Shown here in pieces: positions 3,448 to 62,472 of a stretch of 64,000 bases of DNA. A program made the position numbers and the translations under genes. Position 1 is the first letter of the stretch. Every line of letters starts with the position of its first letter. The notes beneath the pieces were generated by a model. The model was not told the DNA's origin and did not search any database. It saw only the letters and a program-made list of their open reading frames with translations. Source of the stretch: Physcomitrium patens (lineage: Eukaryota > Streptophyta > Bryopsida > Funariales > Funariaceae); contig NC_037262.1 in the NCBI RefSeq assembly GCF_000002425.4, positions 7,220,123 through 7,284,122 on the forward strand, written 5' to 3'.

Positions 3448-3484
3448 TGTCATGGACATACATTGGAAGATTCTTCGAATATTC

Positions 3485-3608
3485 TTCTAGAATATTCTCT
3501 AAAGATTCTCTAAAGATTCTTTTAGAAGGTTCTAGAAGATTCTTAGAATATTCCCTAAAGATTCTCTTAGAAGGTTCTAGAATATTCTTAGAAGGTTCTA
3601 GAATATTC
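3485..3608 (+). promoter_or_regulatory. Array of perfect heat-shock elements in the A LTR
   Basis: Alternating GAA and TTC triplets at exact 2-nt spacing, the consensus for heat-shock factor trimers: a trimer at 3485-3497 (TTCTAGAATATTC), a tetramer at 3525-3542 followed by a dimer at 3546-3553, and tetramers at 3570-3587 and 3591-3608. The array lies about 100-230 bp upstream of the TATA box and is repeated in the 3' LTR near 15567-15690. Heat-driven transcription is inferred from the motif, by analogy with the heat-activated Arabidopsis element ONSEN. Confidence 0.75.
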
Positions 3609-3712
3609 TGATAGGTTCTAGGAAGTTGCTCGAGAAGTTTCCTAATTAGTAGAAGTTGTTAGAGAAGCGTCCTAGTTAGCGGAAGTAGCTCGAGAAGCTT
3701 CCTATTCAGTAG

Positions 3713-3753
3713 TATATATAGGAGTCGAGGCTGAAGGGTTCTTCAGTCTCGAC
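3713..3753 (+). promoter_or_regulatory. A LTR TATA box and adjoining 13-bp hairpin
   Basis: TATATATA at 3713-3720, then 3 nt, then an inverted repeat at 3724-3753. The two 13-nt arms pair fully with a single G-U, around the loop GGTT. The B family has an equivalent hairpin at the same place with a different stem sequence. Confidence 0.75.
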
Positions 3754-3903
3754 AACACATCTCTTGGAGTTCTAGCTCACCTTTCTGGTGTTGTTCTTGT
3801 ACTCATCTGTTTAATCTAGTTCTGCCACTTCTTCTTGAACTTCTTGTTAGATTTCAAGTCTGTATTTTGTGTCCGTGACAGTTTGTCGAGACTACATTTT
3901 CAC

Positions 3904-3915
3904 TGGTATCAGAGC
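3904..3915 (+). other. Primer binding site of element A (initiator tRNA-Met type)
   Basis: TGGTATCAGAGC lies 23 nt after the 5' LTR and is complementary to the 3' end of plant initiator methionine tRNA, the usual primer for plant Gypsy and Copia elements. Confidence 0.85.
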
Positions 3916-7356: not shown

Positions 7357-7896
7357 TGTCACGGACATACATATAATTACCTATATGAATAGATAAAAGT
7401 ATGTAAAAGTAGATAAAAGTAGGTTAATTGTGTAATATCTTCTAGAGAAGCTTCTTAGAAGCTTCATAGACGCTGCTTTGACTTTATAGGAGTCTATAGT
7501 TGACTTTTAGGCTAGAAACTTGGTCAACAAGTTAGCCATGTGCCACACATGTTGGAAGCTTAAAGAATAAGCTAACTACGTGGTCCATCCATAGAAAACT
7601 TGCCTTATAAGCAAAGGCATGTGGCCTAGAAAGTCAACATATATTGGAGGTCTTATAGAACATCGCCATGTGGCTTCTAGTTAGATAGTATATATAGAGG
7701 CAAGAGTGAAGCCCTCTTCACTCTTGTCAACTCCTTTCTTGCTTCTAGTCCAGGTTCAAGAGTCTTTAGTTTCTTGTCTTGTGGCAATAGCCATTCCAGT
7801 TTCCTTTTAATATACCTACTTGTTTATATTTTGACTTATTATATCGAGATAGCCTTTTGGTGTATATTTTTCCTCATCGAGTCTTTGTCCTTGACA
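7357..7896 (+). repeat. Element B 5' LTR
   Basis: 540 bp from TGTCACGGACAT to GTCCTTGACA. Two heat-shock-type dimers GAAGCTTC (7448-7455 and 7459-7466, 3 nt apart) lie in its first fifth. A TATATATA box is at 7689-7696, followed by a hairpin at 7699-7728. The 10 bp missing from the 3' copy lie around 7829. Confidence 0.95.
7689..7728 (+). promoter_or_regulatory. B LTR TATA box and 13-bp hairpin
   Basis: TATATATA at 7689-7696; the inverted repeat 7699-7728 has arms CAAGAGTGAAG and CTTCACTCTTG extended by a G-U and a G-C pair, with loop CCCT. Equivalent hairpins occur in H (50864-50893), E (46226-46251) and both D LTRs. Confidence 0.75.
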
Positions 7897-7928: not shown

Positions 7929-8108
7929 TTTGTTTTTTCTTGAGTAAGAGTCGATTACCCCTTTCTCTTGACAAGACATAAGCGTATTAGAAGTTTGCGG
8001 ATTATCCACTTCTAAACTGATATTGTTCTTAGTATCTTCTTTGTTATCAAGTCTTTCTTTTCTTTTGTCTTGAGCAATATCAAACAAATTTTTCTTCTTA
8101 GTGTCATT

Positions 8109-9113
8109 ATGGCAGAGCTTGTTGAAATGAAGAGCGCAATGGCACAAATGCAAGAGCAAATGAGGGAGTTAATGCTTGCGATGCATCAACTCAATTCACC
8201 AACACAGGAAAGAACAAGAATAGCAAAAAGTGGAGATATAGAGATGATCGGAGCTGCTTCAACATCTACAACAAATCACGTTCCTTCTCCAATTGTACAA
8301 CACCCTATAAACACTAGAGAACCAAGAATTGCCTTACCTGAGAAATTTGATGGTACGAGATCAAAGTTTCGAGGGTTCATCAATCAAGTACAATTGGCAA
8401 TAGAACTTCAACCGCAAAGCTATCCAATTCCAGGATCACAAGTCAGGTTTATTGACACTCTACTTTCTGGTTCTGCATTATCGTGGTTTTCGTCTTTTCT
8501 TGAACAACGAAATCCAATATTGGACAATTTGGAAGCTTTTTTGGCGGAGTTTCGATCTATGTATGGTGAACACGATGCAACTCGTGTTGCAACAAATAAG
8601 ATCCGAATTCTGCGACAAGGAAATCGCTCAGTAACAGTATATGCTTCACAATTTCGACAACTTGCAATTGACATCAAGTGGGATGATGCTGCACTCATCA
8701 GTCAATTTCTTTATGGATTGCAATACGAAGTAAAGAAATTGATGCTCAACTTACCTGATCCTCAAACTTTGAGTCAAGCAATCGATTTTGCGATAAAATG
8801 TGATAATCGACTTTTCGAATTTCGATCCGAGAATCATTCACGGAAACCTCAACGTTATTACTCAATGGCAACATCAACATCTTTGCCAAACGTACATTCG
8901 GAAGTAGAAGACATGCAAATTGACGCGGTACGTTTTAAACCTCTAACTGAGCAAGAAAAGATTCGTCGTCGTCAAGAAGGATTATGTTTATATTGTGGAG
9001 AACCTAAGCACACTGCTCAACATTGTCCAAAGAAACGACGCAACTATAAAATGAGGGGTACGACAGTCAAAGAAGACAACATGTCGGAAAACGGATTCTT
9101 CCAGCTACAATAG
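8109..9113 (+). CDS. gag: Element B Gag polyprotein
   Basis: 334 residues from the ATG at 8109; the D copy starts at the equivalent ATG. The N-terminus has a helical, Met/Gln-rich stretch (AELVEMKSAMAQMQEQM), followed by the capsid region with LPEKFDGTRSKFRGF and ALSWF. A CCHC knuckle CX2CX4HX4C ([14 protein letters not shown]) sits near the C-terminus. The frame is intact although pol is broken, so this copy could supply only Gag. It ends in TAG, six bases before the nominal pol start; the pol frame (-1) is open through the last part of gag. Confidence 0.92.
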   Translation: MAELVEMKSAMAQMQEQMRELMLAMHQLNSPTQERTRIAKSGDIEMIGAASTSTTNHVPSPIVQHPINTREPRIALPEKFDGTRSKFRGFINQVQLAIELQPQSYPIPGSQVRFIDTLLSGSALSWFSSFLEQRNPILDNLEAFLAEFRSMYGEHDATRVATNKIRILRQGNRSVTVYASQFRQLAIDIKWDDAALISQFLYGLQYEVKKLMLNLPDPQTLSQAIDFAIKCDNRLFEFRSENHSRKPQRYYSMATSTSLPNVHSEVEDMQIDAVRFKPLTEQEKIRRRQEGLCLYCGEPKHTAQHCPKKRRNYKMRGTTVKEDNMSENGFFQLQ

Positions 9114-9118
9114 GGACC

Positions 9119-12100
9119 GTGCAGCTGGAACCTTGTACAATTCCTAATGAAGGTCCTATCCTCTCCTCAGAACCCTCTCCTTGTTTTATAATAGACTTAT
9201 ATTTAGGACCTAAGAATTACAAAGCCTCTGCTTTATTAGATTCGGGAGCCTCAGCATGTTTTTTAGATGAACAATTTGTTAAAAGTCGTAAAATACCCTA
9301 TGTACAGAAACCTAAACCAGTACATGTAGAAGTCATAGATGGTCGTCCCTTGTCTTCTGGAGATGTCACTCATGAAACTCATCCTATAAAAGTAACAATA
9401 GACGGTCATGATAGCTACATAGCTTTTAACATAATTAAATCCCCGTCCAATCCAGTTATTTTAGGTTTATCCTGGCTAGAAAAATATAACCCTCGAATAG
9501 ATTGGAATTCGCGTAAACTTGACTTTTCCAAAAGCGTTATTAATAGTTCTACGAACCAAGTAAAAAAATTATAAGTCTAGTACAGTAAAACCCGTACTGA
9601 TAGGTGCAAAAGCATTTATACACGCAGCAAAAGAAGGATCAACTTTTGCTATTTATGCTGCACCTATTTCTGAAAATGTAAAGACTTCAAGTGGCATTCC
9701 AAGTCAATATCAGGAGTATCAAGACGTTTTTGAGAAAAAGAATGCAGATATTCTTCCTGAGCATCGTCCATATGATTGTTCAATCGACCTCAAGGAAGGA
9801 ACTCAGCCACCATTTGGACCAATTTACAGTTTATCGCAAGATGAGATGGCTGAACTCAAGACATATATTGACGAGAATTTAGCGAAGAATTTCATACGCC
9901 ATTCAAAATCTCCAGCAGGAGCTCCAATTCTATTCGTAAAGAAAAAAGATGGATCTTTACGAATGTGTGTTGATTATCGAGGACTCAACAAGATCACAAT
10001 CAAGAACAGGTATCCATTACCTTTGATATCAGGACTCCTTGACCAGTTGAATCAAGCTAAGATCTATACAAAAATAGATCTAAGAGGAGCATATAATCTA
10101 GTACGGATCAAAGAAGGAGATGAATGGAAGACTGCGTTTCGAACCAGGTATGGACATTTCGAATATAATGTCATGCCCTTTGGACTCACGAATGCACCAG
10201 CTGCTTTTCAACATCTCATGAATGATGTATTTCATGAATTCTTAGACAATTTTGTCGTCTGCTATCTAGACGATATCCTGATCTATTCCAAGAACGTCGA
10301 AGAACATGAAATACATGTTCGTCAAGTATTACAAAAACTTAGAGATACAGGATTATTACCAAGATGGAAAAGTGTGTATTTCACACTACTCAAGTTGACT
10401 TTTTAGGATACATCATTTCAAATGATGGTCTCATGATGGATTCTAAGAAAGTCCAAACAATCGTGGATTGGAAGATTCCAAGGACAGTAAGAGATGTTCA
10501 ATGTTTCTTGGGATTTGCCAATTACTATCGGATCTTCATCAAAGATTTCTCACGAGTTGCAGCTCCACTTACACGCTTGACTAGTAAAGATAAATTTCAA
10601 TGGAATCAAGAAGCGGAAGCAGCATTTGAAGCCTTGAAGACATCGTTTGTCTCTGCACCAGTCTTATATCGTGTTGACTTTTCCAAGGCATTTTTTATGG
10701 AAACAGATGCATCAGATTTTGCCTTGGGTGCAGTTTTATTACAAATGGGATCAGATGACAAACTTCATCCGATAGCTTTTCATTCAAGAAAATTCTCAGC
10801 AGTCGAGATCAATTATGAGATCCACGATAAAGAACTTCTTGCGATCATGGATTCCTTTCAAGAATGGCATCATTATCTAGAAGGTGCTTCTAGTCCAGTC
10901 ACTGTGTATACAGATCACAAGAACCTCGAGTATTTCATGTCAGCAAGCGTGTTGAATCGTCGTCAAGCTCGTTGGAGTATGTCATTGTCAAGATTCGAGT
11001 TCATTATCACTTATCGGCCAGGAAAACAACAAGGTTTATCCGATGCCCTATCTAGACGTTCTTATTTTGCACCAAAAGAAGGAGATGCAGCTTTTGAGCA
11101 ACAAAGAACGGTCCTCTTGAAACCGGAGCAATTTCATCTCCGAGCAATGAAATCAACATTGACTGTTGATTCAACTTTTCTCAAGCAAATCCAGTCCAGT
11201 ATGTCCTCAGACCCTCTTGTTTATGATATCGAGAATAATTCTTCCAAGTCTCATGATCCTTCTAAGTTCAAGTTCAAGAATAATCTATTATATTTTGAAA
11301 GACGCCTATATGTTCCAGAAAGAGAAGCACGTTTACGTGTTCTTCAAGCACGTCATGACTTTCCAGCAGCAGGGCACTTTGGATATAATAAGACTTTGGA
11401 ACTCATATCAAGAGATTTTTGGTGGCCACAAATGTGGAAGTCAGTCAAAGACTTTGTACAATCATGTGATATTTGTTCAAGATCAAAAATTCCTCGTCAT
11501 CGACCTTACGGACTTCTTCAGCCATTACCTATACCAGAACAACCATGGTCTTCTGTTTCTATGGATTTCATCACAGATCTTCCAAGCTCAAGATCTTATG
11601 ATTCTATATTTGTGATAGTAGATCGTTTCACCAAGATGGCACATTTTGTGCCATGTACAAAATCTATCACAGGTGAAGAAACAGCTAAGCTTTTCATTGA
11701 TAATATCTATCGCTATCATGGATTACCTAAAGATATCATATCGGATAGGGGAACTCAATTTGTGTCAAGATTTTGGAGGACCCTTTTCAAGATTTTAAAA
11801 GTGGACATAAAGCTATCTTCGGCTTTCCATCTTCAAACTGATGGACAAACAAAGCGCGTAAACCAAGTCTTGGAGCAATATTTAAGGTGTACTATCAACT
11901 ACCAACAAGATGATTGGACAACCCTTCTGCCATTGGCAGACTTTACTTATAATAATACGGTACATTCTTCCACGCAACAAACACCTTTCTTTGCCAATTA
12001 TGGCTATCATCCACGACTTGATACTTTTGATTTTTCAAAAGTTGATAATCCTGCAGCAGAAGATATGGCAAATCGGTTGTCAGAGTTACATGCAATAATG

Positions 12101-12607
12101 AAGACGCAATTGAAGGAAGCTCAAGAACGACAAAAGATAAACGCAGATCTATATTGTAAAGAGCAACCACAACTCAACATGGGTGATAAGGTATGGCTAC
12201 TTCATCGCAATATCAAGACTACTCGACCTTGTGACAAGTTGGACTATCGTAGGCTTGGCCCCTTTTCTGTTTCTGAACAGATCAACCCAGTTGCATATTG
12301 GTTACATCTACCGGAGTCAATGAAGATCCATCCTGTATTCCACGTATCTCTTCTTGAACCATATAAGACAGTGGATATACAAGGAAGAAGACAAATGCCA
12401 CCGCCTCCTATAGAAGTAGATAATAATGAAGAATTTGAGGTGGAAGAGATATTAGACTCAAGGCGGCGCCAAAATAAGCTGGAATATCTTGTTCATTGGC
12501 GCGGATATGATATTAGTGAACGCACATGGGAGCCATCCAGGAATCTAGCAAATGCATCAACTAAAGTCAAAGTTTTTCATCAACGACATCCATCAAAACC
12601 AAGATGA
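9119..12607 (+). pseudogene. pol: Element B Pol with two frameshifts and a mutated integrase
   Basis: Protease (LLDSGAS), reverse transcriptase ([12 protein letters not shown]), RNase H (ETDASDFALGAVL), HHCC zinc region (GHFGYNKTLELISRDFWWPQ...CDICSRSK), integrase core, GPF-type module and C-terminal chromodomain (EVEEILDSR...YLVHWRGYDISERTWEP). Compared with D there is one extra base in an A run at 9562-9568, and one base is missing near 10355-10362, just after the RT core. The third acidic residue of the integrase D-D-E triad is AAG (Lys) at 11852-11854, where A and D keep Glu in the DGQTERVNQ motif. This copy cannot encode a working Pol. Confidence 0.9.
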
Positions 12608-12701
12608 AAATCTCTCTTATAAAAGAGACAAGATTGAGGCAAGATAACATTCAATTTCCTATCCTTGTTTGTAACTTCTTTGCATTTGTGACGCTAATTA
12701 G

Positions 12702-13124
12702 ATGGAGAGCCAACAACCAGCAGATTCAACTCAAGAACCTTCGTTTGCTGACCTGCCGGACGAGACATTGCGATTGTCACAACCTTCAAGACGACGCAAC
12801 CGAGATGAAGACCCTCAAGAACGACATGTTCTTCCTCGAATAGATGGTGAGATACAACGCATTTGGTATCACGACCTTGGAAGAGATTCTCGATGTTTGG
12901 TGATATTATTGGAGATAGGAACGACTCCTGATTGTGTTTCAAATGTATTATTTGAAGGAAGTTATGAAGACCTCAACAGTGATCAAATAACAGGGTGGTC
13001 TTCTCGCCCTGGAATGGGACACTATCGATGGCTAAGAGGACCCATCAACTATCTTCGAAGAGAACAAAGATTAGAATATGTAGCAAATAGAATTCATCGC
13101 ATATTAGATTTTCTCAATATATAA
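12702..13124 (+). CDS. Accessory protein of element B (aORF), unknown function
   Basis: 140-residue sense ORF starting 95 nt after the pol stop and ending about 40 nt before the 3' LTR. The N-terminal half is polar, with a basic/acidic patch SRRRNRDEDPQ near residues 30-40. The C-terminal half has the core GHYRWLRGPINYLRREQ followed by a predicted helix ending ILDFLNI. No signal peptide, transmembrane segment, zinc or catalytic motif is apparent, so it is not a typical Env. It is not recognised as a known domain. Element D (56705-57127) has a near-identical intact copy and element A (15132-15479) a distant homologue in the same position. Retention beside broken pol genes suggests a selected role, but the function is unknown. 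Confidence 0.75.
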   Translation: MESQQPADSTQEPSFADLPDETLRLSQPSRRRNRDEDPQERHVLPRIDGEIQRIWYHDLGRDSRCLVILLEIGTTPDCVSNVLFEGSYEDLNSDQITGWSSRPGMGHYRWLRGPINYLRREQRLEYVANRIHRILDFLNI

Positions 13125-13165: not shown

Positions 13166-13695
13166 TGTCACGGACATACATATAATTACCTATATGAATA
13201 GATAAAAGTATGTAAAAGTAGATAAAAGTAGGTTAATTGTGTAATATCTTCTAGAGAAGCTTCTTAGAAGCTTCATAGACGCTGCTTTGACTTTATAGGA
13301 GTCTATAGTTGACTTTTAGGCTAGAAACTTGGTCAACAAGTTAGCCATGTGCCACACATGTTGGAAGCTTAAAGAACAAGCTAACTACGTGGTCCATCCA
13401 TAGAAAACTTGCCTTGCAAGCAAAGGCATGTGGCCTAGAAAGTCAACATATATTAGAGGTCTTATAGAACATCGTCATGTGGCTTCTAGTTAGATAGTAT
13501 ATATAGAGGCAAGAGTGAAGCCCTCTTCACTCTTGTCAACTCCTTTCTTGCTTCTAGTCCAGGTTCAAGAGTCTTTAGTTTCTTGTCTTGTGGCAATAGC
13601 CATTCCAGTTTCCTTTTAATATACCTACTTGTTTATATTATATCGAGATAGCCTTTTGGTGTATATTTTTCCTCATCGAGTCTTTGTCCTTGACA
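13166..13695 (+). repeat. Element B 3' LTR
   Basis: 530 bp, begins TGTCACGGACAT and ends CCTTGACA. By eye it differs from the 5' copy at about five positions and a 10-bp deletion. Confidence 0.95.
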
Positions 13696-13700
13696 ATATC

Positions 13701-15005
13701 CCAAAAGGACCAACTCGACTTCGAGTACTTCAATCTCGCCACGATTTTACAGCTGCGGGACATTTTGGATTCAACAAGACTTTGGAGCTCATTTCACGAG
13801 ATTTTTGGTGGCCCCAAATGTGGAAGGATATGAAGGAATTTGTCCTTTCTTGTGATGTTTGTTCAAGATCCAAGATCCCTCGACATCGTCCGTATAGACT
13901 TCTCCAGCCATTGCCTATTCCGCACCGACCATGGTCTTCAGTTTCTATGGACTTCATTACGGACCTACCGCCATCGAATTCATTTGACAGTATCTTTTTT
14001 GATGTGGATCGATTTACAAAGATGGCGCATTTTGTGCCTTGCAAGAAAACATCGTCAAGTGAAGACACCGCAAGACTCTTTCTTGATAACATATATCGTT
14101 ATCATGGCCTACCAGATGATATCGTGTCGGATCGAGGTACTCAGTTTGTATCCAAGTTTTGGAGGTCCCTCTTTGAGATATTGAAGGTGGATATTAAGCT
14201 CTCTTCGGCTTTTCATCCTCAAACTGACGGTCAAACGGAGCGGGTGAATCAAGTTTTGGAGCAATATTTACGATGCAGCATCAACTATCAACAAGATGAT
14301 TGGACTGCATATCTACCGCTTGCTGAGTTCGCATACAACAACACTCTTCATGCGTCAACTCAACAAACACCATTCTTCTCCAACTACGGATACCACGCCA
14401 AGCTCGATTTATTGAGTTCTTCAGCAAATAACAATCCAGCAGCTGAATGATTTGTGAAGCAACTATCGGAGCTTCAAGCGACGTTGAAGCTTCAATTGCA
14501 ATCTGCCCAAGAGAGTTACAAGGCATTTGCAGATAAATATCGAAATGAGGCGCCTACTTTTAAAGTTGGAAGTAAAGTATGGCTTCTTCGACGGAATATC
14601 AAGACCAAGCGACCATGTGACAAATTGGACTATCGAAGATTAGGGCCATTTGTTATCGAGAAGCAGATCAATCTGGTGGCATATCGTCTGGAGTTACCAG
14701 CTACTATGAAGGTACATCCACTCTTTCACGTGTCTTTGCTGGAACCTTATCGAGAGTCAGCTTTTCCCCAAAGAGTACAAAGTCCGCCACCAAGTATCGA
14801 AATTGAAAACCATGAGGAATACGAGGTGGAAAAGGTACTAGATTCACAGCGTAATAGGAGAAAATTGGAGTATTTAGTGCATTGGAGTAGATACGACATC
14901 AATGAACGAACGTGGGAGCGTGCCGAAAATCTTGCCAATGTACCAAAAAAGGTACAAGAATTTCATCAACGATATCCTCATAAACCTAAGCCGATTCAAC
15001 GATAG
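13701..15005 (+). pseudogene. pol: Element A Pol, C-terminal part (integrase and chromodomain), with a stop codon
   Basis: Continuation of A pol after nested element B. HHCC zinc region (GHFGFNKTLELISRDFWWPQ...CDVCSRSK), integrase core with SMDFITDLP, VSDRGTQF and DGQTERVNQ (D-D-E triad present), a GPF module (DYRRLGPFVIEKQIN) and a chromodomain (EVEKVLDSQ...EYLVHWSRYDINERTWE). A TGA at 14448-14450, where B and D read a sense codon, interrupts it shortly before the GPF module. Chromodomains of this type steer integration to particular histone marks. Confidence 0.9.
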
Positions 15006-15131
15006 CTTCTTGCTGAAGCTTGCTCATCAAGTAGCATAAAAAGGGGGGAGGGCACCTCCAAAACCCATAGTTCGATAGTGTAGAACTTTGTTAGCAACTA
15101 TAGTTTGCTCTTATCATTTTAGCCTTTGGAC

Positions 15132-15479
15132 ATGGATAGTCAAGATACTACACTTGTTATGTCATCTCAAGCGACTAGCTCACGAAGACGACTGCGAGAT
15201 GAAGAACCGCCTGCACCACGACGACGTCGGAGGATACCGAGCAACAGATCGCTAGTAATTGTATTTGAGGTCGAGCCTGCCTACGACGGTCAGCCAGAAG
15301 GTGTGTTTGGAGGACAGTTTCACAATGAAGACACAGAAGTCCACGCTTGGTCAGAGGTTGAAAGTGTTGGTCACTACCGTTGGCTCCAAGGGCCGATGAA
15401 TCATTTGCCTCGCGAACAACAATTGGAATTCATAGCGGATGTGATGCGACAGATTTTTATTTTCTTGCATTGGTATTGA
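15132..15479 (+). CDS. Accessory protein of element A (aORF), unknown function
   Basis: 115-residue sense ORF from the ATG at 15132, in the same place as the B and D aORFs: after the pol stop and 50 nt before the 3' LTR. It aligns with B over the N-terminal SRRRLRDEEPP patch, followed here by a run of five arginines, and over the C-terminal core GHYRWLQGPMNHLPREQQLEF; the middle is shorter and diverged. The basic patch could be a nuclear-localisation or nucleic-acid-binding element, which is inference. No membrane segment. The shared core in otherwise diverged families argues that it encodes a real protein. Confidence 0.7.
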   Translation: MDSQDTTLVMSSQATSSRRRLRDEEPPAPRRRRRIPSNRSLVIVFEVEPAYDGQPEGVFGGQFHNEDTEVHAWSEVESVGHYRWLQGPMNHLPREQQLEFIADVMRQIFIFLHWY

Positions 15480-15529: not shown

Positions 15530-15962
15530 TGTCATGGACATACATTGGAAGATTCTTCGAATATTCTTCTAGAATATTCTTTAAAGATTCTCTAAAGATT
15601 CCTTTAGAAGGTTCTAGAAGATTCTTAGAATATTCCCTAAAGATTCTCTTAGAAGGTTCTAGAATATTCTTAGAAGGTTCTAGAATATTCTGATAGATTC
15701 TAGGAAGTTGCTCGAGAAGTTTCCTAATTAGTAGAAGTTGTTGGAGAAGCGTCCTAGTTAGCGGAAGTAGCTCGAGAAGCTTCCTATTCAGTAGTATATA
15801 TAGGAGTCGAGGCTGAAGGGTTCTTCAGTCTCGACAACACATCTCTTGGAGTTCTAGCTCACCTTTCTGGTGTTGTTCTTGTACTCATCTGTTTAATCTA
15901 GTTCTGCCACTTCTTCTTGAACTTCTTGTTAGATTTCAAGTCTGTATTTTGTGTCCGTGACA
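15530..15962 (+). repeat. Element A 3' LTR
   Basis: 433 bp, the same length as the 5' LTR, with about four differences seen by eye. The heat-shock array and hairpin are retained. Confidence 0.95.
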
Positions 15963-16256
15963 GGTAGTTTGAAAAACAAGCTAACTATGTAGCATACAGA
16001 TAGAAAACTTACCTTGTAAGTTAAGATTTGTGTCTTGCAAAGTCAATATGTTTTGGAGATCCTATAGAATATTGCCATATAATTCCTAATTAAGACAATA
16101 TATGGAGGCAAGAGTGAAGCCTTCTTCACTCTAATGAATGTCTTTCTAGTCCTTGTTCTTATTTCAAGACTTTCTAATCTTCTTGTTTTTAGCAATAGCC
16201 ATTCTAATTCAATAATATATCATCTTCAAATAAATTTTGAATTCCTTTCAGTGACA
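15963..16256 (+). repeat. Right part of the old B-family solo LTR
   Basis: Continues the LTR cut at 3447: GCTAACTATGTAG, AAAACTTACCTTGTAAG, then GGCAAGAGTGAAGCC with a decayed hairpin and an end CAGTGACA at 16256. It is markedly more diverged than the LTRs of B and D. Confidence 0.7.
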
Positions 16257-25739: not shown

Positions 25740-27448
25740 CTCACAGGGTTTGGTGATAACCCCCCCCCCCCCCCAACCCCCAACCTCCCACCCCACCACT
25801 AGGGTTTGGTAGTAGCAGGACAGAAATAGAGGGAGACCGAGAGACACAGAGAGAGAGAGAGAGAGAGAGAGGATACGTGCTGCTGAGAAGATACGGCCTG
25901 GAGGGAGGGGGAGGGGGGAGAGTAATTCCTTGGCAGAACCGTCCTACAGGTAGAGAGGGGGGATGGCTACAGGCCACCACGCGGTGGCAGAAGGTAGGCA
26001 GAAGAAGAACTGGGTTGTTCCAGCGTTGTTGCCCCCTGTGCTGGTTGTTGTAGTACCACGTACCTTCTGCCTCCCTTCCCTTCTTCTTCTTCCTCTTCTT
26101 CTTGCTCGGGGCAGGTGCACCAACGCCAGGCTCACACAACAGCAGGCTGCCTGGCTTAACTCAACACCCCCCCCCCCCCATTGCCCTTGCCCTTCCTCTT
26201 TGCCGCACTACTGCTCTCCTGGTTTTAATTCGTCGTCTCGCGTCTTTGCATCCCTCTTTCTCGTCTTCCCTTCCCTTCCTTTAGTGTGCGCCTCAGCTCT
26301 AACTTGGCGCCGTAGCTTCCTACTGGCTTGAGGGCGGATTAGTAGAGTGGTCAATGCTGTGGGATGAAGGGAGCCGTGCGTGGCTGTGCAAGACGGTTTG
26401 GTACGGGGGATTGGAGGAGGAGGAAGGGTGTGCGTTGTGGTGTGTAGGGGGGGGGGGGAGAAAGAGCGTGTGCTTATGAGGTGGCGAGTTTCGTTCACAG
26501 CGGGTTTTGGTTGGATGGTCTAGGGTTGTGTTGATGCGTATTGTTTGCGAGTAGGGGGGAGCGGTAGTGGCGGAGGGGGAATTCGGTTGCTGATTATTCA
26601 AACTTGTCTTGAGTGAGCGGGCAGGGGTGGAGTCGAATAGGGCATGGGAGGGTGGTTGGTTCGGCGTGGATGCTCTGATGTGGAGGAGTTCGAGAAGGAG
26701 TGGCAAGTAGTGGTTGGCGATTGTGGAGAGGAGTAGCTGCTGGGAATGGCCTTGTGAGGAGTGATATCGCGGTTGTTGAGGTGTTCAGTTGCAATGAATA
26801 GGAGTTCGAATAGGGTATTTGTCGTTGGGAGGTGACTTGTTTTTAACGGTGCAGACTGGTATTGGTTGTTGTCATGCTTAGATCTCGGAGGTAAGTATGA
26901 CCAAAGTTCCCCATTGAAGGAAGCAGTATTTTGTATAACTAAGTTCATCAGAAGGGGTTGAAGCTGCGTCAACCGTGTTGAAGAATATATTTTCTTTTGA
27001 CCAAACTCAGCACCGGCGAGTGGAGTGCCATTGGTAACTTTCCAAGCGGGAGAGGTCGAGTTACATGTGACACACAATCTGTTTGAGGACTGCATCAATG
27101 TGCGGGAGCGATGGGTGACGATTTTTGAAGTAATCCGAACAAAGACCTCGTAACCTAAAGGATCTAGATTTGAAGGAGAGAAAAAAAGCGCTCAGGAAGT
27201 TGGAGGGTCTGTTATGCTCGACACAATAGAAGGCGTTTTTTTTCATTTGATGATTATCTGTACCAAGGATTCCTTCATTCTCCGGTGCTCCTGTTGTGAA
27301 GAGGAGGCGTAAGTGCTTATTTGCTTCGGCCTCTAGCGTTGGATGATTGTTTAGTTTTGAGACAATAAGGGACGTTGAGAATTGGTCATCGTAGAGCGAA
27401 TCTGAGGGCGTTTCATTGTTGGGAAGTGACTTGAGGCGGGGGGTCCTC
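25740..27448 (+). promoter_or_regulatory. Promoter and leader region of the F-box gene with C/G homopolymers
   Basis: GC-rich stretch upstream of the F-box start: C15 at 25760-25774, a (GA)n tract near 25848-25870, C13 at 26167-26179 and G12 at 26447-26458. A strong splice-donor sequence GAG|GTAAGT is at 26888-26896 and could open a leader intron, although no acceptor could be chosen with confidence. No ORF here resembles a known protein. Confidence 0.45.
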
Positions 27449-28597
27449 ATGCATATAGAGCATTTCCTAGCGAAGGAGCACGGCAGGAACTGTCGTAGGA
27501 TCTCAATGCCGATGCTCGCGACTGATCACTTTGACAGGCTGCCTGACTCGCTGCTACTTGTGATCTTCAACAAGGTAGCAGACATTAAGGTTCTAGGGAG
27601 GTGCTGTGCTGTTTCGAAGAGGTTTCACTCTTTGGCACCATTGGTGGACAACGTTGTGGTGAAGGTTGACTGTGTGATTTCCGGAGAAGAGAATGGTTTA
27701 AACGCTAGAGGCAGAGGAATTATCAGTCATTTTGTACGGTTTGTTGTGGGAACTTTAGTAAAACCTCTTCAGGCCTTAACACATCTTTTGGGACCAAAGA
27801 AGACTATTCTTGCCGAAGTGTCTCATCATTCTCCGAGTGAGGTTTTGAAAAACTTCAAGGAGATTCAGAACTTGAGAATCGAATTACCTGGTGGAGAACT
27901 TGGGATCGAGGATGGTGTGCTATTGAAGTGGAGAGCTGAGTTTGGAAGTACTTTGGAGAGCTGTGTGATACTTGGGGCTGCATCGCTTGTGAAGGTGGAA
28001 AAAGAAAAAAAAACAGTTAAACTAGAGGGAGTTCGTCCTTGGTTTCTGAATGGCAGAGACGATGGAGCATCTCAAGTAGCGGCCGAAGATAATAGCGAAA
28101 CCCCAAGTAATCTCGTGGATGAAAGTGGTACGATTCCTGAGTCTTTCTACACTGATGGTGGACTGAAGGTAAGGGTCGTGTGGACCATTAGCTCTCTTAT
28201 TGCTGCGTCTGCAAGACACTACCTTCTTCAGCAGATTATATCTGACCATCCGACACTTGAAAGCCTGGTTCTTACGGATGCGGATGGACAAGGTATGCTG
28301 TGTATGAACAAAGAGCAATTGAGGGAATTCCGAGACAAGCCTTTGGCAGCCTCTGCGTCATCAAACAGGACTCAAGTGCCTGCTTTGAACATGAAGCTAT
28401 GGTATGCACCTTACTTGGAGCTTCCGGAAGGAACTGGTTTGAAAGGAGCAACACTGGTGGCTATCAGACCTAGCGAGCAATCTGCTCGCAAGGAAGCAGA
28501 GAATTTTGTATCGGGAGCTTTCGAAGAGCCTTTTAAGACTGCAACAAATTTGCTGGTGAAGCGACGAACTTACCTTCTCGAGATGAATTCATTCTGA
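27449..28597 (+). CDS. F-box protein, AUF1/AUF2-like
   Basis: 382 residues from the ATG at 27449; alternative in-frame ATGs at 27506 and 27512 lie just before the F-box and would fit Arabidopsis homologues better. The F-box is at about residues 28-70 (HFDRLPDSLLLVIFNKVADIKVLGRCCAVSKRFHSL). The rest matches the layout of the auxin-up-regulated F-box family (AUF1/AUF2): a VDCVI segment after the F-box, an LRIELPGGELG motif and a C-terminal half with LWYAP-LELP. As an SCF ubiquitin-ligase subunit it would bind SKP1 through the F-box and recruit unknown targets through the C-terminal part. Single-exon coding region. Confidence 0.85.
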   Translation: MHIEHFLAKEHGRNCRRISMPMLATDHFDRLPDSLLLVIFNKVADIKVLGRCCAVSKRFHSLAPLVDNVVVKVDCVISGEENGLNARGRGIISHFVRFVVGTLVKPLQALTHLLGPKKTILAEVSHHSPSEVLKNFKEIQNLRIELPGGELGIEDGVLLKWRAEFGSTLESCVILGAASLVKVEKEKKTVKLEGVRPWFLNGRDDGASQVAAEDNSETPSNLVDESGTIPESFYTDGGLKVRVVWTISSLIAASARHYLLQQIISDHPTLESLVLTDADGQGMLCMNKEQLREFRDKPLAASASSNRTQVPALNMKLWYAPYLELPEGTGLKGATLVAIRPSEQSARKEAENFVSGAFEEPFKTATNLLVKRRTYLLEMNSF

Positions 28598-46640: not shown

Positions 46641-47065
46641 TTACATGTCGAGGAAGTCTAAGATGTAGCGAATTATATTTGTCACATATTCTGATCTTTT
46701 TTCTCTTCAAAGATGATTGATAGGGCCTCTCAAACATCGATAGTATCCCATACCAGGGCGGAAAGACCACCCAATTATTTAATCATTGTTGAGGCCTTCA
46801 TAACTTCCTTCAAATAAAACATTTGGAACACTATCACGAGTTGTTCTTTCTTCTAATAAAATCTCCAAATATCGGGAGTCCCTTCCAAGGTCGTGATACC
46901 AAACGTGTTGTATCTTGCCATCTATTTGAGGAATAACATGTCATTCTTGAGGATCTTCATTTCGATTGCATCTTCATGAAGGTTGTGACAATCATAATGT
47001 CTTATTCGGCACGTCAGCAAACCAAAGCTCTTGAGTCAAATCCGCTAATTGTTGGATCTCCATCT
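46641..47065 (-). pseudogene. aORF remnant of element E
   Basis: Aligns at DNA level along the whole D accessory ORF (56705-57127), including the segments for the GHYRWL...GP core and the start region, but with stop codons and small changes. It shows that the ORF was already part of the family when this old copy inserted. Confidence 0.7.
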
Positions 47066-47699: not shown

Positions 47700-49532
47700 T
47701 GTAATACGTGAAGTCTTGCTTGAGAATGCTCCGGGCACTTGGCTGTGGAAGGAAGAATAGAAATTGCAATAACAAAGTCGTAATTCTAATAGAATACTAA
47801 CAATGCTCTAATTAGACCATAATAATGCTAAGCAAGCTTAATCAAATTCAAAAAAACCTCAAAGAAACTTCAAAAAAATAATAAGAATTCTTAAAGAAAT
47901 ATTAGAAGGATCACAAATATCACTCAAATACATCTCAATTAAATCTTAATTTAATTCTAGTTAAAATCCTATTGAACTTCATTCAAATTTTAGGCCAAAA
48001 TTAATTAAATCTTAAATCCTAATAAAATCTTAAATCCTAAATCAAACCCTAAATAAACCTTAAACCCTAAATAAAATCCTAACCAAATCCTAAACCAAAT
48101 CGTAAATCCTAAATCAAATCCTAAACCCTAAACCAAACTTTAATCCAAACTCTAAATTCTAAACCAAATTCTAATCCAAATCCTAAATCCTAAACCAAAT
48201 CCTAACCAAATCTTAAATCCTAAATAAATCCTAATCAAATCCTAAACCAAATCCTAAATCCTAAATCAAACCCTAATCAAAATCCTAAATCCTAAACCAA
48301 ACCCTAAATCAAATCCTAAACCAAATCCTAAATCAAATCCTAAATCAAATCCTAAACCATAAACCAAATCCTAATCAAACCCTAAACCAAAACCTAATCC
48401 TAAATTAAATCCTAACCCTAAATCCTAACCAAATCCTAAACAAATACTAAATCCTAAACCAAACCCTAAACCAAACCCTAACCCTAAACTAATTCCTAAC
48501 CAAACCATAGTAATTCCTACAACAGATTTAAACCTCAATAACTAATAAATAAACCATTGATCTTAATTCAAATTTTACTCACTTCTTAAAAACTAAGTTG
48601 AAAATAATTACAAATTTTTTGTAAAGGATCGGAATTACCAAATAGACGATAAACTCAAAAACGTGCTCAGGTATTGGTTGGCCTCCTTTTCCAACCTTGA
48701 TGTCAATCTTTCAGAGCCAATATCTCTCCTTTGCATTATTTGATTGATCTCAAAATTATCATACACATAGAAAAATAAGTCTAATATCCTCTCACATAAG
48801 TTTCACTCTAATCCAACTAGTAGATTGCAATAAATCTTAAAAACTCTCACTAGATCTAAAATTCTACTTTCTAAGACCTTGACCCTCTTAAACCTCAATA
48901 TCTCTCAAATCAACCGTTAGATCTAACTCAAATTCACAATACATATTAAACACATTTATGACCATAAATTTAAAATTTTTTACCTATAGATCTATTACAA
49001 AACTCTTGAAATCATCCAAAATATAAACCCTATTTTATTTCATAAAATTCAAGTCATCCAAAACAAACCTTGACTTTGTAAAGCTTTTACAAAGTCATAA
49101 CAACTCCAAATCATCCAAAATCAATGCATATAGAAATCCTATCCAACTCCACTCTCTGATCTGCCAAAGAGTCTTGGAATCGTCATCGAGACTCGGTTTT
49201 GTGCCTCAGGGTCGGATTTCGACCCTGGATCATAACCGATCCTCTCCGAGTAACAACATCTAGTTTTTTTAAGTAATTTTTACTAGAATTTACTCTTAAC
49301 TTCGTCCTAAAGATGTCTATATCATTTATTTTTCCAATCTACCTTATTTTGCCTTATTTTTGGCCCTACAAAGTAAGTAGAAGCTATTTTTTCTAAAAGG
49401 GCAGCATTACTATCAAAAGTTTTACTACCTTCTTATCTTTTATCTATATTTTTCTATTTTTTCTTTTAACTTGGCTCTTCTATAATAAGATCCATATTAT
49501 CATCTTACACCATATAGTCATGTTACAATACA
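47700..49532 (-). repeat. Solo LTR F of the T family inside element E
   Basis: About 1.83 kb with TGTAATACGTGAAGTC at the left end and CATGTTACAATACA at the right. ACTAT before it and ACAAT after it are a 4/5 match to a target duplication. The left 60 bp resemble the left end of the G LTR (GCTTGAGAATGCTCCGGGC...TTGGCTGTGGAAGG), and the right end resembles the G LTR end. It interrupts E's integrase sequence, which resumes at 49533. No coding capacity. Confidence 0.65.
47930..48535. repeat. Telomere-like minisatellite inside LTR F
   Basis: About 600 bases of irregular tandem units such as AAATCCTAAACC and AAACCCTAAATC. Individual CCCTAAA heptamers equal the plant telomere repeat, but the array is degenerate with a 10-14 nt periodicity. 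Confidence 0.8.
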
Positions 49533-55554: not shown

Positions 55555-56123
55555 TCAAAATATATCCCCTATGTCTTTGTCCAGTTCGTCTTCGTCACCT
55601 TCATTATCCATATCACTTTCATCTTCTTGCTGCGGAATCTCTGTACCTTCATTAAGGTCTTCCATATTCATCTCTGCGTGTCTTCGTTTAAATATTTTTA
55701 CTCGCTTCCCTGCAATTGGTATTTTCAATTTTGTACCATCTAACTCTCGTAATGAGTAAGTCGCATTATCATGAATAGTTGTTACAACATATGGTCCAAA
55801 CCAACGTTTTGAAAATTTCCGCAAAGTACTATGTTGATTATCTAGACTATTGTCATAAATAAGTACCCAGTCACCTTCCTCGATTGCTTTTGGTCTCAAT
55901 CGATGTTGCTTATCGAATCGCGCCTTGTTTTGTAACCTTGCTCTTTTTAACCTTTCCAATGCTATCTGGACATCTTCCGTTCTTTGCTCCAATTGTCGAA
56001 TCCTAATAGCCAGAAGTTCTTCTCTTGTCAATCCATCTTCCCATGGTAGCATACTCCAAGTAAGTACCTTTTCTTCAATCGGCAGAATTGGTTTTTGACC
56101 TGTCATAAGTTCTACTGGCATAT
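55555..56123 (-). pseudogene. pol: Element G integrase C-terminal region with acidic tail, severed from pol
   Basis: Continues the integrase after nested element D. The start (PVELMTGQKPI) is the usual sequence after the catalytic core. A helical charged stretch (LEQRTEDVQIALERLKRARLQNKARFDKQ) follows, then a GPF/Y-type module (FSKRWFGPYVVTTIHDNATYSLREL) and a highly acidic tail (EDESDMDNEGDEDELDKDIGD). The frame is open to its stop. The acidic tail replaces the chromodomain of the other elements and may serve targeting; that is inference. Confidence 0.85.
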
Positions 56124-56663
56124 TGTCAAGGACAAGAACTCGATGAAAGCTAAAGAGTAAGTGAGACTTTTCTCAAAAAGAAATAGGACAAAATAGAAAT
56201 ATGTATATTAAGAAAGAAACTGGAATGGCTATTGCCAAAATACAAGAAAACTAGAGACCCTTGAAACTAGACTAGAAGCAAGAAAGGAGTTGACAAGAGT
56301 GAAGAGGGCTTCACTCTTGCCTCTATATATACTATCTAACTAGAAGCCACGTGGCGATGTTCTATAAGACCTCCAATATATGTTGACTTTCTAGGCCACA
56401 TGCCTTTGCTTGCAAGGCAAGTTTTCTATGGATGGACCACGTAGTTAGCTTGTTCTTTAAGCTTCCAACATGTGTGGCACATGGCTAACTTGTTGACCAA
56501 GTTTCTAACCTAAAAGTCAACTATAGACTCCTATAAAGTCAAAGCAGCGTCTATGAAGCTTCTGAGAAGCTTCTCTAGAAGATATTACACAATTAACCTA
56601 CTTTTATCTACTTTTACATACTTTTATCTATTCATATAGGTAATTATATGTATGTCCGTGACA
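56124..56663 (-). repeat. Element D 3' LTR
   Basis: 540 bp. Contains the G-box palindrome GCCACGTGGC (56346-56355), the TATA-proximal hairpin and GAAGCTTC heat-shock-type half sites. Confidence 0.95.
56346..56355. promoter_or_regulatory. Palindromic G-box in the D LTR
   Basis: GCCACGTGGC is a perfect 10-bp palindrome holding the CACGTG core bound by plant bZIP and bHLH factors, repeated at 62155-62164. In B and H the core is altered (CATGTG and CACGTA). Confidence 0.6.
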
Positions 56664-56704: not shown

Positions 56705-57127
56705 TTATATATTGAGAAAATCTAATATGCGGCGAATTATATTTGCTACATACTCTGATCTTTGTTCTCTTCGAAGATAGTTGATGGGTCCTCTTAGCCA
56801 TCGATAGTGTCCCATTCCAGGGCGAGAAGACCACCCTGTTATTTGATCACTGTTGAGGCCTTCATAACTTCCTTCAAATAATACATTTGAAATACCATTA
56901 GGAGTCGTTCCTATCTCCAATAATATCACCAAACATCGAGAATCTCTTCCAAGGTCGTGATACCAAACGCGTTGTATCTCACCATCTATTCGAGGAAGAA
57001 CATGTCGTTCTTGAGGGTCTTCATCTCGGTTGCGTCGTCTTGAAGGTTGTGACAATCGCAATGTCTCATCCGGTAAGTCAGCAAACGAAGGTTCTTGAGT
57101 TGAATCCGCTGGTTGTTGGCTCTCCAT
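56705..57127 (-). CDS. Accessory protein of element D (aORF), unknown function
   Basis: Intact 140-residue ORF between pol and the 3' LTR, differing from the B copy at only a handful of residues. It shares the SRRRNRDEDPQ patch and the GHYRWLRGPINYLRREQ core. It ends 41 nt from the LTR. No membrane segment and no recognised domain. Its intactness contrasts with the three stops in the same element's pol. Confidence 0.75.
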   Translation of the reverse strand: MESQQPADSTQEPSFADLPDETLRLSQPSRRRNRDEDPQERHVLPRIDGEIQRVWYHDLGRDSRCLVILLEIGTTPNGISNVLFEGSYEGLNSDQITGWSSRPGMGHYRWLRGPINYLRREQRSEYVANIIRRILDFLNI

Positions 57128-57218: not shown

Positions 57219-60200
57219 TCATCTTGGTTTTGATGGATGTCGTTGATGAAAAACTTTGACTTTAGCTGATGCATTTGCTAGATTCCTGGATGGCTCCTAT
57301 GTGCGCTCACTAATATCATATCCGCACCAATGAACAAGATATTCCAGCTTATTTCGGCGCCGCCTTGAGTCTAATATCTCTTCCACCTCAAATTCTTCAT
57401 TACTATCTACTTCTATAGGAGGCGGTGGCATTTGTCTTCTTCCTTGTATATCCACTGTCTTATATGGTTCAAGAAGAGACACGTGGAATACAGGATGGAT
57501 CTTCATTGACTCCGGTAGATGTAACCGATATGCAACTGGGTTGATCTGTTCAGAAACAGAAAAGGGGCCAAGCCTACGATAGTCCAACTTGTCACAAGGT
57601 CGAGTGGTCTTGATATTGCGACAAAGTAGCCATACCTTATCACCCACGTTGATCTGTGGTTGCTCCTTACGATATACATCTGCATTTATCTTTTGTCGTT
57701 CTTGAGCTTTCTTCAATTGCATCTTCATTATTGCATGTAACTCTGACAACCGATTTGCCATATCTTCTGCTGCAGGATTATCAACTTTTGAAAAATCAAA
57801 AGTATCAAGTCGTGGATGATAGCCATAATTGGCAAAGAAAGGTGTTTGTTGCGTGGAGGAATGTACCGTATTATTATAAGCAAACTCTGCCAATGGCAGA
57901 AGGTTTGTCCAATCATCTTGTTGGTAGTTGATGGTACACCTTAAATACTATTCCAAGACTTGGTTTACGCGCTCTGTTTGTCCATCAGTTTGAGGATGGA
58001 AAGCTGAAGATAGCTTTATGTCCACTTTTAAAATCTTGAAAAGAGTCCTCCAAAATCTCGACACAAATTGAGTTCCCCTATCCGATATGATATCTTTAGG
58101 TAATCCATGATAGCGATAGATATTATCAATGAAAAGCTTAGCTGTTTCTTCACCTGTGATAGATTTTGTACATGGCATAAAATGTGCCATCTTGGTGAAA
58201 CGATCTACTATCACAAATATAGAATCATAAGAACTTGAGTTTGGAAGATCTGTGATGAAATCCATAGAAACAGAAGACCATGGTTGTTCTGGTATAGGTA
58301 ATGGCTGAAGAAGTCCGTAAGGTCGATGTCGAGGAATTTTTGATCTTGAACAAATATCACATGATTGTACAAAGTCTTTGACTGACTTCCACATTTGTGG
58401 CCACCAAAAATCTCTTGATATGAGTTCCAGAGTCTTATTATATCCAAAGTGCCCTGCTGCTGGAAAGTCATGACGTGCTTGAAGAACACGCAAACGTGCT
58501 TTTCCTTCTAGAACATATAGGCGTCCTTCAAAATATAATAGATTATTCTTGAACTCGAACTTAGAAGAATCATGAGACTTGGAAGAATTATTCTCGATAT
58601 CATGAACAAGAGGGTCTGAGGACATACTGGACTGGATTTGCTTGAGAAAAGTTGAATCAACAGTCAATGTTGATTTCACTGCTCGGAGATGAAATTGCTC
58701 CGGTTTCAAGAGGACCGTTCTTTGTTGCTCAAAAGCTGCATCTCCTTCTTTTGGTGCAAAATAAGAACGTCTAGACAGGGCATCGGACAAACCTTGTTGT
58801 TTTCCTGGCCGATAAGTGATAATGAAGTCGAATCTTGACAAAGACATACTCCAACGAGCTTGACGACAATTCAACACGCGTGCTGACATGAAATAATCGA
58901 GGTTCTTGTGATCTATATACACAGTGACTGGACTAGAAGCACCTTCTAGATAATGACGCCATTCTTGAAAGGAATCTACGATTGCAAGAAGTTCTTTATC
59001 GTGGATCTCATAATTGATCTCGGCTGCTGAGAATTTTCTTGAATGAAAAGCTATCAGATGAAGTTTGTCATCTGTTCCCATTTGTGATAAAACTGCACCC
59101 AAGGCAAAATCCGATGCGTCTGTTTCCATAAAAAATACCTTGGAAAAGTCAACACGATATAAGACTGGTGCAGAGACAAACGATGTCTTCAAGGCTTCAA
59201 ATGCTGCTTCCGCTTCTTGATTCCATTGGAATTTATCTTTACTAGTCAAGCGTGTAAGTGGAGCTGCAACTCGTGAGAAGTCTTTGATGAAGATCCGATA
59301 GTAATTGGTAAATCCCAAGAAACATTGGACATCTCTTACAGTCTTTGGAATCTTCCAATCCATGATTGTTTGGACTTTCTTAGAATCCATCATAAGACCA
59401 TCATTTGAAATGATGTATCCTAAAAAGTCAACTTGAGTAGTGTGAAATACACACTTTTCCATCTTGGCGTACAATCCTGCATCTCTGAGTTTTTGTAATA
59501 CTTGACGAACATGTATTTCATGTTCTTCAATATTCTTAGAATAAATCAGGATATCGTCTAGGTAGCAGACGACAAAATTGTCTAAGAATTCACGAAATAC
59601 ATCATTCATGAGATGTTGAAAAGCAGCTGGTGCATTCGTGAGTCCAAAAGGCATGACATTATATTCAAAATGCCCGTACCTGGTTCGAAACGCAGTCTTC
59701 CATTCATCTCCTTCTTTGATCCGTACTAGATTATATGCTCCTCTTAGATCTATTTTTGTATAGATCTTAACTTGATTTAACTGGTCAAGGAGTCCTGATA
59801 TCAAAGGTAATGGATACCTGTTCTTGATTGTGATCTTGTTGAGTCCTCGATAATCAACACACATTCATAAAGATCCATCTTTTTTCTTTACGAATAAAAT
59901 TGAAGCTCTTGCTGGAGATTTTGAATGGCGTATGAAATTCTTCGCTAAATTCTCATCAGTATATGTCCTGAGTTCAGCCAACTCATCTTGCGATAAACTG
60001 TAAATTGGTCCAAATGGTGGCAGAGTTCCTTCCTTGAGATCGATTGAACAATCGTATGGGCGATGCTCAGGAAGAATATCTGCATTCTTTTTCTCAAAAA
60101 CGTCTTGATAATCTTGATATTGACTTGGAATGCCACTTGAAGTCTTTACGCTTTCAGAAATAGGTGCAGCATAAATAGCAAAAGTTGATCCTTCTTTTGC

Positions 60201-60707
60201 TGCGTGTATAAATGCTTTTGCACCTATAAGTGCGAGTTTTACTATACTAGACTCATGGTTTTTTACTTGATTAATAGAACTGTTACTAATGCTGTGAGGA
60301 AAATCAAGTTTACGAGAAATCCAATCTATTCGAGGATTATACTTTTCTAACCATGATAAGCCTAAAATTACTGGATTAGAGGGAGATCTAATTATATTAA
60401 AAATTACGCAACTACTATGACCATTTATTACTACATCTACAGGAAGTGTTTCGTGAGTTACATCTCCAGAAGACAACGGACGACCATCTATGACTTCTAC
60501 GTGTACAGGTTTAGTTTTTTGTATTAATGATATTCTATGACATCTAGCAAATTCTTCATCTAAAAAACAAGATGAGGCTCCTGAATCTACCAAGGCAGTG
60601 GCTTTGTAATTATTAGGTCCTAAACGCACATCTATTATAAAACAAGGAGATGGTTCTGAGGAGAGGATAGGACCTTCATTAGAAGTTGTACAAGATTCCA
60701 GCCGCAT
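57219..60707 (-). pseudogene. pol: Element D Pol with three nonsense codons
   Basis: Protease (LVDSGASSCFLDEEF), RT ([12 protein letters not shown]), RNase H, HHCC zinc region, integrase core with the D-D-E residues (including DGQTERVNQ), GPF module and chromodomain are all recognisable, without frameshift. Stops lie at 59865-59867 (TGA before the RT MCVDYRG motif), 57948-57950 (TAG after NQVLE) and 57297-57299 (TAG for Trp in the chromodomain ERTWEP motif). The first and third are explained by single C-to-T or G-to-A transitions, the pattern expected from deamination of methylated cytosine. The element also has an ATG where B has GTG at the nominal start. Confidence 0.9.
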
Positions 60708-61932: not shown

Positions 61933-62472
61933 TGTCAAGGACAAGAACTCGATGAAAGCTAAAGAGTAAGTGAGACTTTTCTCAAAAAGAAATAGGACAA
62001 AATAGAAATATGTATATTAAGAAAGAAACTGGAATGGCTATTGCCAAAATACAAGAAAACTAGAGACCCTTGAAACTAGACTAGAAGCAAGAAAGGAGTT
62101 GACAAGAGTGAAGAGGGCTTCACTCTTGCCTCTATATATACTATCTAACTAGAAGCCACGTGGCGATGTTCTATAAGACCTCCAATATATGTTGACTTTC
62201 TAGGCCACATGCCTTTGCTTGCAAGGCAAGTTTTCTATGGATGGACCACGTAGTTAGCTTGTTCTTTAAGCTTCCAACATGTGTGGCACATGGCTAACTT
62301 GTTGACCAAGTTTCTAACCTAAAAGTCAACTATAGACTCCTATAAAGTCAAAGCAGCGTCTATGAAGCTTCTAAGAAGCTTCTCTAGAAGATATTACACA
62401 ATTAACCTACTTTTATCTACTTTTACATACTTTTATCTATTCATATAGGTAATTATATGTATGTCCGTGACA
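61933..62472 (-). repeat. Element D 5' LTR
   Basis: 540 bp, identical by eye to the 3' LTR except at 62373. The primer-site region (ATATCAGAGC on the minus strand, near 61901-61910) adjoins it. Confidence 0.95.

Follow-up and report, generated by a model that had tools for sequence, protein, structure and literature searches.

Accessory open reading frames (aORFs) lying in sense orientation between pol and the 3' LTR, the class named aORF-3S, have been described in plant LTR retrotransposons, where, in the available part of the source, they are reported to persist across numerous copies and also across families related to one another (PMC7264820). The slot, the sense orientation and the upkeep across copies and families are shared by the aORF of moss chromoviruses that is the subject of this work. 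However, the aORF-3S treated in section 4 of that paper are env-like, some of them with transmembrane segments, whereas the moss product is small and soluble and belongs to no known family. In the same host, Physcomitrium patens, Ty3/Gypsy elements with a chromodomain have been reported as Tcn1-like chromoviruses named PpatensLTR (PMC2864245) and as RLG families, of which RLG1 and RLG2 are transcribed (PMC7466625). The available portions of these two descriptions mention no aORF in P. patens; one of the elements A and B presented below may be RLG1, and a placement of the aORF carriers in the Tcn1 clade would rest on published host distribution (PMC6317226). A word search of the accessible text of PMC7466625, PMC11899658 and PMC6317226 returned no mention of an accessory ORF, and our literature search found no description of the moss aORF, which the 2008 moss chromovirus and the 2018 P. 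patens genome papers may mention.

Other systems resemble it in part. In the chromovirus-type element SM1-Galahad of Selaginella, gag-pol is followed by two additional short ORFs, of 316 and 309 bp. The 309-bp ORF encodes the chromodomain, whereas in the moss elements the chromodomain remains part of pol and the aORF comes after it; the 316-bp ORF shares with the aORF its short length and its place behind gag-pol (PMC3350952, as far as available). An 'additional ORF' of unknown function appears in the legend of a figure on fungal elements and SM-Tcn1, and env-like ones are noted for Athila (PMC2864245). The ORF3 proteins of bdelloid rotifer LTR retrotransposons are likewise non-env products in the ORF3 slot and modular, but the two named non-env types are recognisable enzymes, and the moss aORF has no recognisable domain (PMC5408684, available sections). 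Finally, gene23 of Grande is also accessory, of unknown role and located between pol and the 3' LTR (PMC11963269, PMC7264820); it is antisense, opposite to the moss aORF, and the likeness is one of description only (PMC11963269). The Grande accessory protein is called nuclear in a cited title.

The window, that is, the whole 64-kb stretch of DNA analysed here, contains the chromoviral elements A, B and D and an old remnant, E, as judged from LTR pairs found by BLAST and from the list of ORFs. Element B is nested inside element A, both on the plus strand, and D is on the minus strand. Their landmarks are as follows:

3448..3881, plus strand: 5' LTR of A, 99% identical to the 3' LTR of A
15530..15963, plus strand: 3' LTR of A, 99% identical to the 5' LTR of A
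7357..7896, plus strand: 5' LTR of B, 97% identical to the 3' LTR of B (ends are those of the BLAST match)
13166..13695, plus strand: 3' LTR of B, starting about 40 nt past the aORF of B
56124..56663, minus strand: 3' LTR of D, 99.8% identical to the 5' LTR of D
61933..62472, minus strand: 5' LTR of D, 99.8% identical to the 3' LTR of D
10364..12607, plus strand: 3' part of pol of B, with RNase H, integrase zinc, core and SH3-like domains and chromodomain (Pfam)
14454..15005, plus strand: 3' end of pol of A, with integrase SH3-like domain and chromodomain (Pfam)

A Pfam search of five ORF pieces gave Retrotrans_gag in A and D, RVP_2, RVT_1, RNase H and Chromo in A, and RNase H, rve and Chromo in B. 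The aORF carriers are chromoviruses, i.e. chromodomain Ty3/Gypsy elements with gag, protease, RT-RNase H, integrase and a C-terminal chromodomain between LTRs. The preliminary description was right that pol is broken in A, B and D: the ORF list shows it split in all three. In A the interruptions are the insertion of B and a stop that ends at 14450; in B and D they are stops or frameshifts. The pol of D (57297-60707, minus strand) is split at at least two places in that list despite the 99.8% LTR identity, and D may have been copied in trans when already broken. Between B and D, gag (8094-9113 and 60713-61720, respectively) is 84% identical, as against 94% for the compared part of pol and the aORF, and the elements look mosaic in make-up. 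The ORFs that flank D on the minus strand (55555-56121 and 62437-63966) read as pieces of a retroelement polyprotein; D seems to have inserted into another retroelement. The stretch TGGTATCAGAGC at 3904-3915, a tRNA-iMet primer-site-like sequence, follows the 5' LTR of A after 20-odd nt, and B and D have CAATATCAGAGC. A primer site is absent from most published Tcn1 elements, according to the available text of PMC6317226.

All four elements hold a sense ORF, or its remains, in the same slot, as had been proposed:

12702..13124, plus strand: aORF of B (B-type), 140 codons, ATG start (ORF list)
15132..15479, plus strand: aORF of A (A-type), 115 codons from the ATG (ORF list)
56705..57127, minus strand: aORF of D (B-type), 140 codons (ORF list)
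about 46641..47063, minus strand: aORF remnant of E, full length, with five in-frame stops and no indels (alignment to D)
12608..12701, plus strand: non-coding spacer of B, 94 nt from the pol stop to the aORF, with a TAG in the aORF frame directly before the ATG
15006..15131, plus strand: spacer of A from the pol stop to the aORF, with an in-frame TAG that starts 12 nt before the ATG

The E remnant aligns with D across 423 nt without a single indel. At the protein level D and B are 94% identical, and A is 40-42% identical to B and D (42% over 110 aligned codons with D). The N-terminal motif SRRR[LN]RDE[ED]P and the C-terminal motif GHYRWL[QR]GP[MI]N[HY]L.REQ, both announced earlier as shared, are present in the window aORFs; the ..LE ending that had been attached to the second does not extend to D, which ends in REQRSE. 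The most constant stretch of the protein is AWS..GVGHYRWL.GP...L. The moss ORF is therefore an aORF-3S by definition, being in sense, between pol and the 3' LTR, and kept across copies.

The evidence for selection at the protein level comes from two scales of divergence. Between A and B/D the synonymous sites are saturated (pS 0.82-0.83, pN 0.41-0.42), and 29 of the 46 residues common to A and D are encoded by different codons. In a neutral simulation, in which D was left to drift to the observed or a similar third-position divergence under an assumed base composition and transition bias, protein identity dropped to about 9% and none of 2000 frames stayed open. The likeness between the aORFs of A and D, 42% with an open frame, is far beyond chance. 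At the shorter scale, copies were chosen by the non-coding spacer: out of 946 first-look candidates, 40 were scored and 30 loci, all on C1 and C2, matched the 94-nt spacer perfectly. Every one of the 30 has a 423-nt aORF homologue without indel; the frame is stop-free in 16, and 15 of these keep the ATG. When D and B were compared with these 15 open copies, which belong to a second subfamily, over codons 34-140, dN/dS was 0.08-0.13 in 30 of 30 comparisons (0.09-0.13 with B and 0.08-0.11 with D), with upper bootstrap bounds of at most 0.27 and with 29-32 synonymous and 12-20 non-synonymous changes. Since the 15 copies are mutually close and B is close to D, the 30 comparisons amount in effect to one old divergence and are not independent. 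Analysis of dN/dS over family copies had been suggested as a check of the preliminary description, and the values obtained are not near 1.

Codons 1-33 were excluded because of a recombination boundary between B and the copy L069: the two differ by 0-3% in the stretch that begins in pol and ends near nucleotide 100 of the aORF, and by 10-22% beyond it, into the LTR, with the breakpoint about 100 nt into the aORF. Over all codons, dN/dS is 0.07 (0.03-0.14) for D against L069, 0.10 for B against L069, and 0.26 (0.15-0.49) for the decayed E against D. B against D alone is uninformative, with 6 synonymous and 8 non-synonymous differences.

Polymorphism among the 30 spacer-picked copies adds a weaker signal. 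The ratio of non-synonymous to synonymous changes is 34:40 for shared and 55:13 for private changes (p=2.4e-5), a contrast that has the expected direction and stems mostly from L049 and L050, whose aORFs are of the B/D subfamily; without L049, L050, L051 and L057 (26 copies) the ratios are 0.65 and 0.49 (p=0.16; p=0.67 versus pol). The pol tail, intended as a positive control, shows no contrast either (68:27 shared versus 118:41 private in 29 copies, p=0.66). Variability within a type is lowest where the three types of the family agree in the A-type (p=0.00017) and the S-type (p=0.0067), and the trend is not significant in the B-type (p=0.11). Within this sample, L050 and L051, about 17.6 kb apart on C2, differ by 1 base in 1200 in their pol tails and by 45 of 423 in their aORFs and have one aORF stop in common, a pattern that is perhaps due to gene conversion between neighbours.

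It might be argued that the ORF is fortuitous or decaying, and that its conservation reflects recent copying or an RNA or PPT signal instead of a protein. Half of the spacer-picked sample has indeed lost the aORF (15 of 30 are open with an ATG), at a per-codon rate equal to that of pol. The low dN/dS, the synonymous saturation between A and B/D and the concentration of the B-L069 differences at third positions (31 of 50) go against this explanation, which we regard as hardly tenable. The analysis shows that the aORF codes for protein and that purifying selection on it is strong, in two families within P. patens; a second moss is known to have it through protein records only. We are nearly certain that the product is an accessory protein of moss chromoviruses, small and soluble, which purifying selection keeps in the transposing lineages.

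This selection does not translate into an unusual persistence of the frame or of the sequence. Premature stops amount to 0.43 per 100 codons in the aORF (18 in 4200, from the 30 spacer-picked copies) and the pol tail has 0.38 (51 in 13473 codons, from 27 copies, leaving out L055, L057 and L070, which are frameshifted or unrelated). Because stops per codon are equal, length accounts for finding an open aORF next to a broken pol, and this coexistence, pointed out earlier, was dropped as evidence. Among A copies picked by aORF similarity, the pol tail is stop-free in 9 of 30. Contrary to what had been supposed, the aORF is also not better conserved than other parts of the element. Identity between A and B/D is 70% in RT-RH, 80% and 62% in two integrase pieces, 62% in the protease part and 47% in gag, and only 35% (by BLAST) to 42% in the aORF, which is among the fastest-evolving parts of the element, changing more quickly than pol and also, to some extent, than gag.

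Relatives of the protein are numerous. A UniRef search gave 247 proteins among 262 candidates with the B query, with P. patens matches of up to 93% identity among the 120 listed, and 98 among 122 candidates with the A query, with P. patens matches of up to 97%. On the strength of these protein matches we take P. patens to be the host. A 34-row profile retrieved 2754 of 7768 proteins, of which 120 were listed. A-type relatives occur in protein records of Ceratodon purpureus. In a tree of 40 chosen rows (25 A-type, three of them from C. purpureus, 7 B-type and 8 S-type), the sequences fall into three deep clades, A-type, B-type and S-type, a division with strong support; the tree program warned that the B-S grouping could result from a long-branch effect. 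The Ceratodon rows fall among the P. patens A-type rows, with placing forks that are not all well supported, and possibly reflect old sublineages or transfer between mosses. The S-type proteins come from contig records, the organism being perhaps Sphagnum. Among the best 150 candidates scored, the closest P. patens match to an S query is 47% identical, and many of the loci found in this way are the coordinates of B-type copies. The exact 20-base stop-start junction of the B-type occurs at 1646 genomic places. No aORF relative was confirmed in viral contigs, and a single 12-residue match in prokaryote genomes was taken as chance. A B-type aORF (P0016) sits on a 549-bp contig labelled Kitasatospora herbaricolor, a label that is probably contamination.

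At the level of the protein, the three window products are acidic (pI 5.4-5.7) and of 13.6-16.5 kDa. The slot and sense orientation are those of env-like aORFs (PMC7264820, available part), which would suit a protein of env-like or movement type among the sense aORFs; with such small sizes and no transmembrane segment by hydropathy (maximal 19-residue values of 0.71 in A and 1.44 in B), this identity is very improbable, in keeping with the earlier view that the aORF is not a simple env-like gene. That no domain can be recognised was also confirmed, as matches in Pfam, PDB sequences and PDB folds did not rise above chance, the fold search having been run on a poor model. The best Pfam match among 34 family members, E=0.065 in one member, is at chance level, and the best Foldseek match (E=0.38) was treated likewise. 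A captured fragment of a host gene, or a host-derived domain now serving the element, such as a sensor-type fold, could be read into a weak profile match to a bacteriophytochrome stretch, but its E of 0.9 is chance level like the others, the match was discarded, and we consider such an origin improbable. Confidence in the structure models is low: pLDDT is 55 for B (44 sequences) and 52 for A (110 sequences), and all that the two models have in common is a set of short strands with a single C-terminal helix after them. Taken together, moss chromoviruses carry a conserved, protein-coding, non-env aORF with no recognisable domain.

The way in which the aORF is expressed can be partly read from its upstream context. 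The TAG in its frame at -3 in B and at -12 in A means that it is not an extension of pol, and its translation is presumably separate from that of pol. Just before the aORFs of A and B there is a U-rich stretch that ends in TAG and at first hinted at a splice acceptor. When scored with a splice-site matrix, the upstream acceptors do not stand out, ranking 22nd of 476 in A, 94th of 453 in B and 62nd of 469 in D, and a processed-junction pattern, expected in B copies devoid of gag-pol, was found in 0 copies against the 1646 ordinary junctions. This pattern covered B only, with three changed bases before one assumed acceptor, and would miss many true junctions. Splicing was not counted as demonstrated, and it may nonetheless take place.

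Regarding function, the protein probably has a real job in the life cycle of the element. The roles named in the preliminary description, RNA or DNA binding, nuclear import, silencing suppression and targeting, are candidates. We propose tentatively, judging it a little short of an even chance, that it is a host-directed adaptor. Its conserved module would hold on to a protein of the host, either in the nucleus or within the replication complex, and would thereby help expression or mobilisation of an element that the host confines to silenced heterochromatin. The N-terminal region is variable and charged, with an arginine patch and the RDE[ED]P-type motif, and the conserved C-terminal module runs from LVI..E through AWS..GVGHYRWL.GP...L to a terminal helix, the last as suggested by the low-confidence models. 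A different possibility, somewhat doubtful in our view, is that of a particle or replication factor, i.e. a nucleocapsid-like chaperone, a minor capsid protein or an integrase/cDNA cofactor that works with gag-pol and not with the host. The carriers are gag-pol-chromodomain elements, with two families in the window, the aORF evolves at a rate not far from that of gag, and A-type proteins have basic patches, all of which suits such a factor. However, the window proteins are acidic, that of A has no cysteine and therefore no zinc knuckle, neither the gag of D nor the chromodomain of B shows profile similarity to the family (hhalign probabilities of 0.1% and 1.2%, profile versus single sequence), and Selaginella SM-Tcn1 is reported, in the accessible part of PMC2864245, with gag and pol only.

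The adaptor was preferred over the particle factor because the protein is soluble and acidic and evolves fast outside a core that stays fixed, and because RLG1, a family to which A or B may belong, is reported, in the available text of PMC7466625, to form heterochromatic islands. This basis is not decisive; fast evolution may fit a host-facing protein, and suits a structural one too. Against the adaptor, the bipartite-NLS-like patch RRR.R[DE]EEP..PRRR, present in all six A-type proteins checked (window A, P0121, P0125, P0153, P0164 and P0172), is missing from the B-type proteins (window B and P0002) and the S-type protein (P0026) checked. A broader proposal, that these proteins form a moss family of retrotransposon-encoded anti-silencing or host-chromatin adaptors that helps to explain the heterochromatic islands filled with chromoviruses, seems unlikely at present.

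A selected, uncharacterised protein has thus been added to high-copy elements of a model moss. P. patens is amenable to gene targeting and knock-down, and its genetics makes the benefit of a non-env accessory protein to an LTR retrotransposon directly testable. We also argue that the family proteins recorded in UniRef as 'predicted' in P. patens and as 'hypothetical' in Ceratodon (KC19_, M758_) should be annotated on the transposon side. Elsewhere in the window, a 393-codon ORF at 27416-28597 has the appearance of an F-box protein, and an 11-12-nt unit is repeated in arrays at 509-1111 and 47932-48721, which resemble each other in opposite orientation.
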